Made by a program: the position numbers and the translations under genes. DNA of 64,000 nt from Alphaproteobacteria bacterium (GTDB taxonomy: Bacteria > Pseudomonadota > Alphaproteobacteria > Rs-D84), in contig JAFVOS010000004.1 of the NCBI GenBank assembly GCA_017505705.1, positions 1 to 64,000 on the forward strand, read 5' to 3'. A model generated the notes under the pieces. It did not search any database and was not told where the DNA came from. It saw only the letters and a program-made list of their open reading frames with translations. Shown in pieces: positions 29,489-36,649 of the stretch. Every line of letters starts with the position of its first letter. Position 1 is the first letter of the stretch.

Positions 29489-30496
29489 ATGTCAATCAAA
29501 GAATACACATCTATGCGAAACAAAGATTGGGTTCAGGCCGCAGGCACACTGGCCAATATATACGCAAAACTAAAAGGACAACAAGGTGCAAACAATGGTC
29601 GTGATTCAACCGAACAATGCGATGGAATCGTTCAAGTATCCGGATACACACGTGCCGACGGTACCGAGGTCGCCCCATACGAGCGTATTTGCCCATATCA
29701 CTATAACGGGCAAAAACCAGAAAATAAGGACAAAAAAGAAGATAAGAACAAAGAAAAAGATTTCAGCCTGAGTGGCACAGTATCGGCCAATAACACAACA
29801 AATGAAGACGATGTTATAAAACTGAAAAAGAACCTGTATAAAATGAATTACTATAAGCCCAATGAACGCAGTGAACCAGATGAAATGTTTCACAAATATG
29901 CAAATACAGAACTGATTACAGCGATTAAGGATTTTCAACGTGATAACAATTTACCCATAACCGGGCGCATATCATCGGGTGATGAAACAGAACGTGTGTT
30001 GAATACGAAGTTTGAATCACATGGCGCAAAATTTGAATATCCGGTCAATACAAACAAAAATCAAGTTGCAGTGTTTGATGGCAAGAAATTTACACTGTAC
30101 GAAAAAGACAAGCCAATTATGTCGTGGGACGCAGTATCTGGAAACAAAGGCTATCAAACACCAGAATTTCAATCTATGAAAGACAAAGGAACAATCCCAG
30201 AAGGAACATATGTCGCAAGACAACAAAGCTTACAAGGAATAACAATATACGGGTCAACAGTGGGACTTGTTGGTGTTGGGACTTGGCCTGGCGGTCAGCC
30301 ATCATGGGGCAAATCAAGAATAGCGTTAGAGGCATCTACAACAACCAATACGTACAGCAGAGGAGGGTTTTATGTACATGGTGGTTGGACTGCCGGTTCT
30401 AATGGTTGTATTGATTTGACAGAAAATTTGGCAGATTTTACACAGTGGCTAAAAAAACATGGACAAGATTTGATTGTCAAAGTATCATACAGATGA
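29489..30496 (+). CDS. Tlde1-type L,D-transpeptidase-fold peptidoglycan toxin
   Basis: Likely damages peptidoglycan in rival cells. Of 335 residues, the N-terminal part (to about 100) carries VSGYTRADGTEVAPYERIC and a charged linker. A peptidoglycan-binding-1 domain follows at about 108-175 (DVIKLKKNLYKMNYY, AIKDFQRDNNLPITGRIS). The C-terminal DUF2778/Tlde1 domain (about 195-335) has FDGKKFTLYEKDKP and the catalytic HGGWTAGSNGCIDL with its His and Cys. There is no signal peptide, so delivery by a secretion system is expected; none is seen in this window. The stop overlaps the ATG of the next gene (ATGA). Confidence 0.8.
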   Translation: MSIKEYTSMRNKDWVQAAGTLANIYAKLKGQQGANNGRDSTEQCDGIVQVSGYTRADGTEVAPYERICPYHYNGQKPENKDKKEDKNKEKDFSLSGTVSANNTTNEDDVIKLKKNLYKMNYYKPNERSEPDEMFHKYANTELITAIKDFQRDNNLPITGRISSGDETERVLNTKFESHGAKFEYPVNTNKNQVAVFDGKKFTLYEKDKPIMSWDAVSGNKGYQTPEFQSMKDKGTIPEGTYVARQQSLQGITIYGSTVGLVGVGTWPGGQPSWGKSRIALEASTTTNTYSRGGFYVHGGWTAGSNGCIDLTENLADFTQWLKKHGQDLIVKVSYR

Positions 30497-30795
30497 TGAG
30501 TTTCATAGCAGGCGTTTTATCTTTTAGTATACTATTATTCTTTATGAATGATTTGCGTGGACTTTTAAGTGTCAGCAAATGGGATGGCTTGCTATATTTT
30601 CTTTGTAATCAAAGCTGTTTAATACTTATCGACCAGATTTGTATAATCTTATTCGGTATAACGTTTGTGCTGATTGCTAGTCACACAATCAAACGATATA
30701 AATGGAAATTCCTGTTTGTTCCAATATTAGGAATGATTGTGTGGCTTATTTTAACATTGGCATACATTCTGGTTATGGATACGTTTTTTATGTGA
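30493..30795 (+). CDS. Putative immunity membrane protein A
   Basis: A 100-residue protein with three or four membrane helices (SFIAGVLSFSILLFFMND, then CLILIDQICIILFGITFVLI and a C-terminal FVPILGMIVWLILTLAYILV). The ATG at 30493 overlaps the toxin stop, so production is coupled to the toxin, as expected for cognate immunity. Inner-membrane location fits protection against a periplasm-acting wall enzyme. No sequence family was recognised and it does not resemble the two later membrane proteins. Confidence 0.6.
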   Translation: MMSFIAGVLSFSILLFFMNDLRGLLSVSKWDGLLYFLCNQSCLILIDQICIILFGITFVLIASHTIKRYKWKFLFVPILGMIVWLILTLAYILVMDTFFM

Positions 30796-30810
30796 CCACA
30801 ATTGCTATGA

Positions 30811-31011
30811 CACGAGCTTTCTTGGGGCAATTCACGTGTATGGTTGGAACCATCAAATAAAACAAATACATACGGTCGTGACAATTTTAGCATACATGGC
30901 GGGTGGTGGCCAGGTTCCGCCGGTTGTATTGATTTGACAGGACAAATAAATGCTTTTACATCTTGGCTAAAAAGTACTGGAAACGACCTGATTGTACATG
31001 TAAAATACTAG
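30811..31011 (+). pseudogene. Orphan toxin C-terminal cassette 1 (no start codon)
   Basis: From about 30820 the frame reads SWGNSRVWLEPSN, then NFSIHGGWWPGSAGCIDL, and ends in DLIVHVKY-stop. This is about 63 residues homologous to the last part of the toxin and keeps the His and Cys catalytic motif. A TGA (30808-30810) sits just upstream in frame and no start codon exists, so it is silent unless recombined onto the full gene. Its sequence has diverged but stays open, which argues against simple decay. Confidence 0.75.
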
Positions 31012-31026
31012 TAAAAAGGGTTATGT

Positions 31027-31380
31027 ATGCAAAAATGGAAACGGGTCGCAATTATCCTAAACTGTTTAAATGTGTTTTTGTTATTCGTAGGCCTTTACGA
31101 TTACTATGACTTTTTTATCAAAGAATGTCGTGATGCGTTTCCGTTTAATTATTGTCCATGGGGCGGTGAATCTATGGGCTGGGCATGGCGCAGTGCAGAT
31201 GTATATTTAACAAATCTGGTATCTTCTTGTGCCGAGTTGTTATTCTTTATTCCAGTATCATTGTATTTTTTGTATAAGAAAAACTATAAAGCAGCTTTCT
31301 GGATCGCATTAAGCCCGACCATAATATCTTGGACTGATTCTTTGCTTAGCACCCTGCTATATCATTATGCAAAATTTTAG
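31027..31380 (+). CDS. Putative immunity membrane protein B
   Basis: A 117-residue protein with about three membrane helices (VAIILNCLNVFLLFVGLYDY, then LVSSCAELLFFIPVSLYFLY and FWIALSPTIISWTDSLL) and a Cys-bearing loop (ECRDAFPFNYCPWGGE). AAAAAGGG precedes the ATG. It follows orphan cassette 1 by 15 bases, so it is the likely immunity partner of that cassette. It is not similar in sequence to protein A or C. Confidence 0.55.
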   Translation: MQKWKRVAIILNCLNVFLLFVGLYDYYDFFIKECRDAFPFNYCPWGGESMGWAWRSADVYLTNLVSSCAELLFFIPVSLYFLYKKNYKAAFWIALSPTIISWTDSLLSTLLYHYAKF

Positions 31381-31394
31381 TTGTTCAAAAATAA

Positions 31395-31550
31395 ACCCAA
31401 ACATATGGTCGTGACAATTTTAGTATACATGGTGGTATTGAACCGGGTTCCGCCGGATGTATCGATTTAACAAATTATATCGACAACTTTACAAATTGGT
31501 TTGAAAATAATGGACTGGATTTGATTTTAAGTGTAAAATACAACCAATGA
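31395..31550 (+). pseudogene. Orphan toxin C-terminal cassette 2 (no start codon)
   Basis: The frame reads TYGRDNFSIHGGIEPGSAGC and then IDLTNYIDNFTNW, ending in a stop at 31548-31550. It matches the last 50 or so residues of the toxin and is closest to cassette 1 (shared TYGRDNFSIHGG). An in-frame TAA lies at 31392-31394, so there is no independent start. The catalytic His and Cys are kept. Confidence 0.75.
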
Positions 31551-31900
31551 AACACATGAAGTCTATATTATATGTTTTGGCACTACTGATATTACTGGGC
31601 TTATCAGCTCTTGCAATGCTGGTGCCAATCTCTGAACTTCACTATATTTCTGTTATGGCACCATACCCATATATACTAGATGGTGAATGTTGTAAATATA
31701 TCGAATTTATGGGCTTAGAAATACGCACCATATATTATGTGGCCTTGTTGGTAATATATACAATTGCACAATTGGTATTTGTGTGTTTTGGGATATATAA
31801 AGCCTTCATGAAAAAGTACTTTGTTGCACTGGCATATCTGTTTGTCCCTGTTGCGATGGAAATATTTATGAGTTTGCTGCACTTACTGATATATAGCTAA
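31547..31900 (+). CDS. Putative immunity membrane protein C
   Basis: A 117-residue membrane protein with helices at about 5-27 (SILYVLALLILLGLSALAML), 63-83 (YYVALLVIYTIAQLVFVCFG) and the C-terminus (YFVALAYLFVPVAMEIFMSL). Its ATG overlaps the stop of cassette 2 (ATGA), the same coupling as at the first toxin-immunity junction. An alternative ATG lies three codons in. Likely immunity partner of cassette 2. Confidence 0.55.
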   Translation: MKHMKSILYVLALLILLGLSALAMLVPISELHYISVMAPYPYILDGECCKYIEFMGLEIRTIYYVALLVIYTIAQLVFVCFGIYKAFMKKYFVALAYLFVPVAMEIFMSLLHLLIYS

Positions 31901-32269: not shown

Positions 32270-32297
32270 TTGATTTTTGTGGGAAATGGTGTAGAAT
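32270..32297 (+). promoter_or_regulatory. Promoter of the PLD-gene leader RNA
   Basis: TTGATT (32270-32275), 16-bp spacer, TAGAAT (32292-32297). An inverted repeat (AAATCGT with ACGATTT, 32221-32247) lies just upstream and may be an operator. Confidence 0.55.
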
Positions 32298-32303
32298 ATG
32301 TGT

Positions 32304-32479
32304 GTGCAAGTAATTGCACAAGACATTAAAAGTGAGAACGGGTTTGATCACCCACATACCACAACTTCTAATGTCCCGACCCTTGGTCGGGATGCCGTTG
32401 TTATAAGACTTGTCAAAGGCAACGGGGTTCTGTATGTGAACTGATCAACTCCCGACCACTCTTGTTTGAGTGGTCTTTT
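32304..32479 (+). ncRNA. Switch-like structured leader with terminator/antiterminator
   Basis: Nested stems: TTGATCA/TGATCAA (32344-32350, 32442-32448) encloses CACATAC/GTATGTG (32353-32359, 32432-32438). Inside are TCCCGACC/GGTCGGGA (32374-32392) and CCGTTG/CAACGG (32395-32425). A terminator, GACCACTC/GAGTGGTC plus T4, follows at 32454-32479. The sequence TCCCGACC occurs again at 32450-32457, overlapping the terminator arm. GGTCGGGA can therefore pair with either copy, forming or breaking the terminator. It fits a riboswitch or attenuator controlling the PLD gene 13 bases downstream. Confidence 0.65.
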
Positions 32480-32491
32480 GTTTGGGGTTGC

Positions 32492-33016
32492 ATGTTTGTC
32501 AGACAATGGACTTTTGTTATTGGGATTGCGTTTGCCATTGGGGTTGGCGTTGGGGCGCAATTGCCCACACAACATGCAACTATACCGCAAAACATGGTGG
32601 TTTATTTCACCCCCGGCACCGAATGCGAAGACCGCATAATTGCCGAGCTGGGTCGGGCCGATAAAATCGACATTGCCGTCTATTCCATAACCAATCCTAA
32701 AATTGCCGATGCCATTATTGCCGCCCACCGTCGGGGCGCCCATGTCCGCATCGTCACAGACCGAGTTATGGCCGGACATAAATCATCCATGATTGATGAA
32801 TTGGCGGCCACTGGCATAGCCGTCCGCACCAACCGCCGGCACAAGATTGAACATAATAAATTTGCAGTCTTTGATAATCGGCGCATGGTGACGGGTTCCT
32901 ATAACTGGACCACCGCCGCCACAAAATACAACAGTGAAAACTGCATCTTTCTGACCCACCCAGCGCAAGAATACACCAAACGGTTTGAGTATTTATGGAA
33001 TGCATATAAAAAATAA
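32492..33016 (+). CDS. PLD-family endonuclease (Nuc-like), secreted
   Basis: A 174-residue phospholipase D superfamily nuclease. A signal peptide (MFVRQWTFVIGIAFAIGVGV) is followed by one HKD motif region: HKIEHNKFAVFD, with HxK(x4)D as HNKFAVFD, and then RRMVTGSYNWT. This is the signature of the single-HKD Nuc/BfiI-type dimeric enzymes that cut DNA without metal. The codon use is visibly richer in GC (many GCC and CCG codons) than neighbouring genes, suggesting recent transfer. Its leader RNA ends in a terminator just before the start. It may degrade DNA in the periplasm or outside the cell. Confidence 0.8.
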   Translation: MFVRQWTFVIGIAFAIGVGVGAQLPTQHATIPQNMVVYFTPGTECEDRIIAELGRADKIDIAVYSITNPKIADAIIAAHRRGAHVRIVTDRVMAGHKSSMIDELAATGIAVRTNRRHKIEHNKFAVFDNRRMVTGSYNWTTAATKYNSENCIFLTHPAQEYTKRFEYLWNAYKK

Positions 33017-34168: not shown

Positions 34169-35410
34169 TCAAACAATATCATCGCCAGTGGGACGTGTTG
34201 TTTTTATAACACGCAAATTTGGATTATATTGAGCAGCACATCGATTTTTAATAAACAGCAATGCCCACATTCCAATCAGAACAATTATCGAACCAAGAAA
34301 AAATATACTGAAACGCCAACTGCCCATTGTGCCGCCCAGCCCAATCAGCAAACATGTAATAATGTAGACTACATTATCGCCAATACTGTAAAGAGATAAG
34401 ATAACCGAGCGATAGCCCGTTGGCAAAAAGTCTTGAAATCTTGAATACAGCAAAATATAAATCGCCGCAAACAGCGCATATGCCGCACCCAACGCCCACA
34501 ATCCTGAAACAGAATAAAACACAGAAAATAAAATGTACAACCCGCCAGCCAAACATATTGATGAATATAAAATCCAATCGGGAACAGCCTTAAAACGATG
34601 GGCAAATGTCTGGCCCAGAACACTGCACCCCAAGGCAAAAAACTGAACCAAGCCGACATACACAACCGGCAAACCGATTTCGATGCCAATGGGGCTCAGG
34701 TAATCATCCAGATAGCAAATATTGCTGACAAGCAATGTCAGCATCAGCATCAAAAATATACATGGCGTCTTAATACATATTTTTGTCCCGGTACGAAACA
34801 GTTTCATAAAATTTGTTTTTCGTACACGAGACTTGATATTCTTAGTACGTCTGCGCAATTGGATTCTGTTGATACATATCATGGAAATTGCAACAGACAA
34901 CAATGAAGCTAATGTTATCCATTCATACCCAGCAAACATTAACAATGAACCAAATGCAGATAATGCCACCGCAACAGCAGATACATTGTATCTGACACCC
35001 AAAACACGTGTATAGATATCATGGTGACGACGGGCACGTAATTCATCGTACAACATTCCTTCAAATGCAACGTTGAAAAAGGCAGACTGAATTCCCCATA
35101 AAAACATCCCAATGGCAAATCCTGCATACGTTGGCCACAGCAGCCACAGTGCAAATGCAAATGCTTTTAACACCTGGCCCAGATTGATTGCATTTTTGAC
35201 CCCAAGTTTGTTCGTAATCCAGGTGACTGGTATCTGGGTCATAAATGTACCAACCGACAAAATAATAAACAGCGAAGACAACTGCATGTCCGTCATTCCA
35301 TGCGACTGCATAAATACCGCATAGACAGGGGATAACAACAACAGTTTATTAAAAAATATGAAACCGTATATATTTGCTAAAAAACGACGAAGAGAATTCC
35401 CTTTTCTCAT
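34169..35410 (-). CDS. MFS transporter (paralogue 1)
   Basis: A 413-residue inner-membrane major facilitator transporter with about 12 helices. The region between helices 2 and 3 (TNKLGVKNAINLGQVLKAFA) is a weak version of the MFS signature. A basic central loop (RRRTKNIKSRVRKTNF) separates the two halves. It is clearly homologous to the next gene (shared FINKxLLLxPVYAxFMQ start and the SRFQxxxPxxYRSVxLSLY block), so the pair arose by tandem duplication. AAGGG precedes the ATG. The substrate is unknown. Confidence 0.8.
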   Translation of the reverse strand: MRKGNSLRRFLANIYGFIFFNKLLLLSPVYAVFMQSHGMTDMQLSSLFIILSVGTFMTQIPVTWITNKLGVKNAINLGQVLKAFAFALWLLWPTYAGFAIGMFLWGIQSAFFNVAFEGMLYDELRARRHHDIYTRVLGVRYNVSAVAVALSAFGSLLMFAGYEWITLASLLSVAISMICINRIQLRRRTKNIKSRVRKTNFMKLFRTGTKICIKTPCIFLMLMLTLLVSNICYLDDYLSPIGIEIGLPVVYVGLVQFFALGCSVLGQTFAHRFKAVPDWILYSSICLAGGLYILFSVFYSVSGLWALGAAYALFAAIYILLYSRFQDFLPTGYRSVILSLYSIGDNVVYIITCLLIGLGGTMGSWRFSIFFLGSIIVLIGMWALLFIKNRCAAQYNPNLRVIKTTRPTGDDIV

Positions 35411-35470
35411 AACCCTTATCCTGTTAAAACTAATAAGGATTATAGTCCTTTTTCTGTTGATTGCATAGTA

Positions 35471-36649
35471 CTAAATTTGACGTCCTGTCAAAACAGAGCA
35501 GTGACGGCGCAAAAATAAAATCGCCCAAACACACAGACACAACATCAAGCCGCCCAGAATAATTATACTGAAACGCCAACTGCCCAACGTTGCACCCAAA
35601 CCAACAATACCGCACACAATCATGTACAAAACATAGTTAACAGTTGTGTATAACGACAATACAACAGAACGATATCGTGATGGTATCATGTGCTGGAACC
35701 TGGAATATAGCAACGTATAAATCCCATAAAAAAGCATATATGCCATTCCCATCAACCACAATGCAGATATGTTATATTGAACACCAAAGAATATAAATAA
35801 CAGTCCAACCAACCCAATCAATATATACAACAGCATATCTGATATTTTTGTAAATTTGTATGCAAAACGCTGGCCAATTGTTGCACACCCCAGTAAGAAC
35901 AGTGGCACAATTCCAATATATTCGGTTGGTATACCGATTTGCAGACCAATGGGACTTAAAAAATCGTCCAGAAATGGGATATTTATGACAAACAGTGTTA
36001 ACAGCATTGTCGACATTAAACATGGTGTTTGCATACAAATGCGCAGGCCTGTACGCAATAATTTACTGGGGCGTGTTACATTATTGGTTGATTGGACACT
36101 AACTGATTTATACGGTATTATGATTAAACACAACATAGATATTAAAATTGCCACAACAGATGCCCATGTCACCCAATCATATCCCATAAACATCAGCAGC
36201 GAACCAAATGCAGACATGGCTGTTCCAACAGATTCATATGTTGATTTTCGCCCCAGAATACGTGAATATTCACGTTGCATACCATATGCTGAAACAGAAT
36301 CATATACCAGACCTTCGAATGCGACACTGCGAAAACCTGCCTGGACACCCCACAAAAACATTCCCGTTGCAAATCCTGGATAGTTAGGGGCAACCAACCA
36401 TAATAAAATCGCAAGGGCTTTTAAAACCTGGCCGACAATCATAGATCCACGCTGACCAATACGATTTGTAATGTGGGTTATTGGGGCCTGGCCCAGAATG
36501 GTTCCCAATGCAGACACAATAAACATTGTTGACAACTGAATATCCGACAGACCATTTTGCTGCATAAAAATGGCATAAACGGGTGTCAGTAATAAAAATT
36601 TATTAAAAAACGCAAATCCATATATTCCCAATAACAAACGGCGCATCAA
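35471..36649 (-). CDS. MFS transporter (paralogue 2)
   Basis: A 392-residue 12-helix transporter, paralogue of the gene at 34169. Features include FFNKFLLLTPVYAIFMQQNG at the start, THITNRIGQRGSMIVGQVLK as the MFS loop, and SRFQHMIPSRYRSVVLSLYT late. AGGGGATTTTG precedes the ATG. The transporter next door differs mainly in loops, which hints at different substrates. A third, more distant MFS protein is at 40563. Confidence 0.8.
   Translation of the reverse strand: MMRRLLLGIYGFAFFNKFLLLTPVYAIFMQQNGLSDIQLSTMFIVSALGTILGQAPITHITNRIGQRGSMIVGQVLKALAILLWLVAPNYPGFATGMFLWGVQAGFRSVAFEGLVYDSVSAYGMQREYSRILGRKSTYESVGTAMSAFGSLLMFMGYDWVTWASVVAILISMLCLIIIPYKSVSVQSTNNVTRPSKLLRTGLRICMQTPCLMSTMLLTLFVINIPFLDDFLSPIGLQIGIPTEYIGIVPLFLLGCATIGQRFAYKFTKISDMLLYILIGLVGLLFIFFGVQYNISALWLMGMAYMLFYGIYTLLYSRFQHMIPSRYRSVVLSLYTTVNYVLYMIVCGIVGLGATLGSWRFSIIILGGLMLCLCVWAILFLRRHCSVLTGRQI

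Follow-up and report, generated by a model that had tools for sequence, protein, structure and literature searches.

What is the RNA structure that precedes the gene for a PLD-family nuclease in the gut-associated Alphaproteobacteria of the lineage Rs-D84? The window analysed here is a stretch of 64,000 nucleotides (contig JAFVOS010000004.1, assembly GCA_017505705.1, positions 1 to 64,000 of the forward strand). An initial annotation, made from its letters, had proposed that a leader of nested stems acts as a riboswitch or attenuator dedicated to this nuclease gene. We discuss this leader from the points of view of its structure, its relatives and its possible mechanism, and compare it with known RNA switches.

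Organization of the leader and its neighbourhood

The leader and its downstream gene comprise the following parts:

32270..32297, plus strand: sigma-70-like promoter by sequence match, TTGATT 32270-32275, 16 nt spacer, TAGAAT 32292-32297
32303..32320, plus strand: 5' hairpin TGTGCAA-GTAA-TTGCACA, in most PLD leaders, missing from several other members
32323..32333, plus strand: 5' strand of helix Pa (ACATTAAAAGT), partner 32364-32374; 11 pairs, 7 with changes on both sides
32340..32353, plus strand: Px, GGG 32340-32342 with CCC 32351-32353, flanking the lower Pk strand
32344..32359, plus strand: pseudoknot (Pk) 5' strand, lower TTGATCA 32344-32350, upper CACATAC 32353-32359
32364..32374, plus strand: 3' strand of helix Pa (ACTTCTAATGT), from covariation in the 16-leader alignment
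32374..32381, plus strand: strand 1, TCCCGACC, partner of strand 2 in hairpin H1
32385..32392, plus strand: strand 2, GGTCGGGA, partner of strand 1 or strand 3
32395..32425, plus strand: hairpin H2; in homologues a bulged loop (TATACAACAGG..CCCAAAGG) or a short GNRA-capped hairpin
32432..32448, plus strand: Pk 3' strand, upper GTATGTG, lower TGATCAA
32450..32457, plus strand: strand 3, the second TCCCGACC copy, pairing with strand 2 or giving GACC to the terminator
32454..32479, plus strand: intrinsic terminator GACCACTC-TTGTTT-GAGTGGTC-TTTT, 5' arm overlapped by strand 3; helix 7 of the covariation analysis
32492..33016, plus strand: PLD-family nuclease gene, 174 aa, hydrophobic N-terminus, ATG at 32492

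Much of what had been described initially is found again. The two copies of TCCCGACC lie at 32374-32381 and 32450-32457, GGTCGGGA at 32385-32392 is able to pair with either of them, these alternative pairings are kept in homologues, and the terminator stands ahead of the PLD gene with the second copy overlapping its 5' arm. The extent first given to the leader, 32270-32492, includes the folded RNA, but its first part (32270-32299) is a sigma-70-like promoter and not leader; this putative promoter sequence is retained in homologues of the PLD leader. The nested stems exist as well, but a long-range helix joining 32344-32359 to 32432-32448 had been overlooked, and this helix, Pk, forms a pseudoknot with the helix 32323-32333:32364-32374. 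Px reads GGG/CCC, GGC/GCC or TGG/CCA in homologues and has no separate covariation score. The leader folds at -71.8 kcal/mol against -58.6 kcal/mol for shuffled sequences, better than all of 200 dinucleotide shuffles (z -3.25). The start codon of the nuclease gene follows the T run by about a dozen bases, and its product carries a PLDc_2 domain (Pfam PF13091, E 3.8e-28, the query being the longer ORF starting at 32462).

An Rfam 15 scan of the window at the gathering threshold returned tRNAs only, with no match for the leader and no riboswitch model. A 6S RNA identity was rejected, RF00013 having no match in the window's genome.

Other genes of the neighbourhood deserve mention. Upstream, 29489-30496 encodes a YkuD/Tlde1-like L,D-transpeptidase with a peptidoglycan-binding domain, followed by three ORFs of about 117 aa (30445, 31027 and 31547), the last preceded by a catalytic-motif-like IHGG..GCIDL; the region 29489-31900 resembles a tandem array of the toxin/immunity type. 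Downstream, on the minus strand (34169-36649), lie two adjoining and similar membrane-transporter-like genes, MFS-like by reading.

Relatives of the leader and covariation of its helices

With blastn, the leader was recovered in 11 of the 59 genomes searched, the window's own included, mostly ahead of PLD genes and, as divergent copies, ahead of other genes. A covariance model named R1, built from 16 sequences and giving rough E-values, retrieved relatives in 136 of the 156 genomes of the genus, with up to 15 per genome, compared with 7/156 by a strict pattern search. Across the order, relatives were encountered in 144 of 190 genomes and 15 of 22 genera. Four copies occur at E <0.01 in the window's own genome, two of them ahead of PLD genes, the second of these being split by an assembly break. 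Further leaders of this genome precede a possible DNA methyltransferase (L102, C5) and a large exported protein (L103, C1), both named by reading. Judging by PLD homologues, the group belongs with Alphaproteobacteria whose genomes were assembled from gut samples (goat, sheep, deer, horse and others). Among Deferribacterales, the genome MS499-41 contains a PLD relative of 51% identity (L256, 1501-1908), which may reflect transfer between gut bacteria.

The genes that follow the leaders of the order are diverse. In 143 of 152 leaders, an ORF of 50 aa or more that begins with ATG lies within about 155 nt, at a median of 24 nt from the model end; a few copies, such as L018, have no obvious downstream ORF. 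These ORFs form 53 sequence families, including PAP2-like proteins (30), PLD (22), an exported Cys-rich-looking group (18), glycosyltransferases and others. A hydrophobic N-terminal stretch is present in 115/143 of them as opposed to 21/57 window ORFs of at least 150 aa, a rough control. The initial view of an element specific to the PLD gene is not supported: since copies precede at least 53 protein families, the element would be a dispersed cis leader, and that of the window looks like one member of a large family which, in gut bacteria, precedes dozens of genes unrelated to one another.

The helices were evaluated in an alignment of 16 leaders that included the pseudoknot, where 88.6% of the cells are paired, 20 of 46 pairs display changes on both sides, Pk was scored as helices 2-4 and H2 as helix 6. 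The covariation score amounts to 0.234, against 0.124 for shuffled alignments (0/500 as high) and at most 0.081 when the partner is slid by 1-3 columns. Because relatedness inflates shuffle-based controls, those using slides or mismatched partners count for more. The two-part Pk helix was assayed by position-constrained pairing, which replaced a free duplex-energy test that was too noisy; over 152 leaders it scores 35.4 as compared with 20.0 for mismatched partners, and the native pairing tops all controls in 91%.

The two alternative pairings of strand 2 behave differently. A strand 1:2 helix (H1) of at least 6 bp is present in 98% of the 152 leaders but gives no clear excess over mismatched partners in this set because strand 2 is so conserved; near-invariant in the close set, H1 is therefore little informative by itself. 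The strand 2:3 stem covaries in a wider alignment that was not fitted to it (94.5% of cells paired, 5 of 9 pairs changed on both sides) and constitutes the stronger duplex of the two in 95% of leaders. All three strands changed jointly in L067 (CCCAACC / GGTTGGG / TCCCAACC for strands 1/2/3) and in L100 (TTCCTGAC / GTCAGGAA / TTCCTGACC), while in L089 and L009 strand 3 tracks strand 2 and strand 1 does not.

Covariation supports the predicted pseudoknot and alternative pairings. The compensatory changes on which the first proposal depended are present, in the 20 pairs changed on both sides, in a score that none of the 500 shuffles attains and in the strand 2:3 stem, and conservation in homologues likewise favours the mutually exclusive terminator and antiterminator pairings it had put forward. 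Exclusive predicted pairings, one of which involves a terminator arm, conserved with compensation, are the hallmark of a terminator/antiterminator attenuator, and the window leader has them.

Kinship with the RF02221 family

The structure had also been thought to match no known class, and here its divergent members led to a different result: they match RF02221 (sRNA-Xcc1). In relaxed Rfam scans, sRNA-Xcc1 aligned exactly over their strand 2-strand 3 core (L090, 52.7 bits, E 1.2e-6), and no riboswitch class matched the relatives in these scans. When 39 genomes of the genus were searched with RF02221, matches appeared in 29, two of them (57.8 and 55.5 bits) above the gathering threshold of 53 bits; an above-threshold locus (L186, G158:C1:189038) was independently found by R1. 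The window element has no match at this threshold and is therefore termed a relative rather than a member, its kinship being traced via intermediates. The H2 loop is similar to the RF02221 consensus AUACAAuACC; the fuller AUACAAuACC..GGGGAA loop is matched in L089, L090 and L093, and H2 of the window has a shorter GTTATAAGAC version.

Both families appear to share the strand 2:3 stem around H2 with its AUACAA(U/C)A loop. Typed as an sRNA, the RF02221 model spans only 87 nt and leaves out the 5' half, the promoter, the strand that completes the pseudoknot and the mimic of the ribosome site. In the window's order, strand 1 and a terminator are present in addition.

RF02221 is present in 54 of 398 Pseudomonadota genomes, representing 35 of 212 genera, and a blastn comparison with plasmids gave one weak match. 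The leaders considered below are the best-scoring 30 Pseudomonadota loci and four phages (34 in total), which is not a random sample. All four phages carry RF02221 directly ahead of a gene annotated or recognizable as ant or of KilA-N type, or of a similar unnamed gene. The Pseudomonadota genes that follow encode, among others, Bro-N/P22_AR_C, KilA-N, Phage_pRha or SymE proteins, and several have no Pfam match. In integrons of Xanthomonas, too, sRNA-Xcc1 lies upstream of symE according to a published survey (PMC12444791).

Nearly all RF02221 elements possess an unannotated 5' half, in which a first hairpin is followed by the pseudoknot 5' strand, then by a second hairpin, whose loop is CCCGTCAG-like, and by a U-rich stretch; this half carries the same pseudoknot as the window family. 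Among 20 sequences, 30 of 35 pairs of the leader helices changed on both sides (score 0.537 against 0.192 shuffled, 0/500 as high). In 21 of the 34 leaders, the pseudoknot 5' strand is repeated at the start of the next gene, a clear repeat being missing in the other 13; L218, for instance, has CTGAAAGACCCCAACACAAG upstream and CTGAAAGAGGAGACACAAGCCATG at the gene start. A Shine-Dalgarno-like motif lies inside or adjoining this mimic in 20 of the 21. As the ribosome-binding site thus repeats the pseudoknot 5' strand, the 3' strand could pair either upstream or with the start site, which it would mask.

Such a mimic is unsupported in the window's order, where it tops all controls in only 8% (position-constrained test). 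A T run of at least four within 55 nt of strand 3 is found in 97% of the order's leaders as compared with 15% of RF02221 leaders. The putative translational switch of RF02221 leaders appears to be replaced by a terminator switch in the window's order. In L014 (1447-1700, G010), the pseudoknot 5' strand is repeated past the terminator near the next gene, a possible intermediate to the RF02221-type mimic. In L214 (2372-2857), two TwoAYGGAY RNA matches are located close to an RF02221 leader and a Bro-N-like gene. On the best reading, RF02221 corresponds to the 3' half of a two-state leader that is widespread and of which the window would hold a terminator-controlled variant.

A probable two-state leader, its alternatives and its significance

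The window element is very probably a two-state leader RNA that acts in cis, has a promoter of its own and is built on a pseudoknot core common to RF02221-containing leaders, strand 2 being the part that toggles. Comparison among relatives establishes the predicted helices, alternative pairings, terminator, ribosome-site mimic and position ahead of genes. In the OFF state, strand 2 would pair with strand 1 in H1, leaving strand 3 free, and the terminator would form and end transcription ahead of PLD. In the ON state, strand 2 would pair with strand 3, the terminator would be deprived of half its stem and RNA polymerase would continue into PLD. In RF02221-type leaders of phages and other Pseudomonadota, the 3' strand of the pseudoknot would toggle between its upstream partner and the repeat of this partner found at the ribosome-binding site. 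The logic would be common to both: a formed pseudoknotted core (Pk with strand 2:3) would turn the gene ON, and the alternative would mask the ribosome site or free strand 3 for the terminator. Which state corresponds to ON is our inference, and some signal, be it a ligand, a protein or a cell state, would stabilize the pseudoknotted core. Nearest-neighbour energies calculated without pseudoknot terms favour OFF in the window leader (H1+H2+T at -42.7 against P1+H2 at -28.9 kcal/mol), so that ON would need a stabilizing signal or co-transcriptional folding. Pk is compatible with OFF in the window variant and therefore would not set the state alone.

A narrower form of this explanation is a strict riboswitch, in which a small molecule binds the pseudoknot/H2 core and selects the state. 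The compactness of the core, the conservation of the H2 internal loop across many genera and unrelated genes and the presence of two expression platforms, ribosome-site mimic and terminator, on one core make it plausible, yet we hold it to be somewhat short of probable: the genes suggest no ligand, and PLD, PAP2, glycosyltransferases, surface proteins, Ant/KilA-N/Rha and SymE have no common pathway. It is unlikely that the element acts in trans, as Rfam describes sRNA-Xcc1, its terminator being its own 3' end and the genes bystanders. The ORF close downstream in 143/152 leaders and the repetition of the 5' pseudoknot strand at the next gene's ribosome-binding site in 21/34 RF02221 copies, needless for a trans RNA, argue against this possibility, even though Xanthomonas has an RNA of 88 nt whose ends are mapped (PMC2996969), transcription of the EHEC and Xylella copies has been reported (PMC5331693, PMC12189769) and some copies have no ORF nearby.

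Two further readings can be considered. Integron cassettes are reported to carry RF02221 copies (PMC12444791), which could evoke a folded DNA recombination site (attC or similar) taken for RNA; this is extremely improbable in view of the element's own promoter, its terminator or ribosome-site mimic, the short distance to the start codon and the two-helix pseudoknot, and the flanking RYYYAAC/GTTRRRY pair was not seen in homologue sequences inspected by eye. A ribosome-coupled attenuator with a leader peptide would account for the 1:2 / 2:3 / 3:4 layout, similar to that of trp-type attenuators, but is very unlikely, as no conserved leader ORF is apparent by reading, indels occur throughout and the 5' region varies between members.

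The two-state leader can be compared with several known systems. In pseudoknotted translational riboswitches such as preQ1 and SAM-II, pseudoknot pairing competes with ribosome access, as it would in RF02221-type leaders; in the latter, however, the competitor for the 3' strand would be the repeated 5' pseudoknot strand located at the ribosome-binding site, and no Rfam riboswitch matches. Trp-type attenuators and terminator riboswitches combine 1:2, 2:3 and 3:4 pairings with an intrinsic terminator, as the window leader appears to do; unlike transcription attenuators, the window family has no visible leader peptide, its 1:2 pairing lies inside a long-range pseudoknot and its members are spread over dozens of unrelated genes. 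Type III toxin-antitoxin loci (ToxIN) share with the window locus the order of promoter, pseudoknotted RNA, terminator and nuclease gene, but the genes downstream of the window family vary widely and are mostly non-nuclease, and the window element has no short tandem RNA repeats.

On a broader scale, we are inclined to believe, with some reserve, that RF02221 is mis-typed and represents the 3' half of a widespread, horizontally spread, signal-responsive class of leaders that control genes in cis, a decoy of their own pseudoknot strand being placed at the ribosome-binding site. Phages and integrons would employ such leaders upstream of antirepressors and SymE, and in a single order of gut Alphaproteobacteria they would have become a genome-wide terminator switch for mostly exported proteins. 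In the open-access literature, no leader or riboswitch ahead of antirepressors or symE was found, and the element is not described there as a leader class; in Rfam, the known relatives are typed solely as a small RNA that acts freely. If our reading is true, a poorly understood 'virulence sRNA' family becomes a testable regulatory switch, and a signal shared by phage antirepressor and SymE expression would connect cell state to prophage induction. One core with two expression platforms offers a natural experiment in the evolution of RNA switches. In these gut bacteria, with genomes of roughly 1 Mb, a single RNA family would then govern as many as 15 or more loci in a genome, most of them encoding exported proteins.
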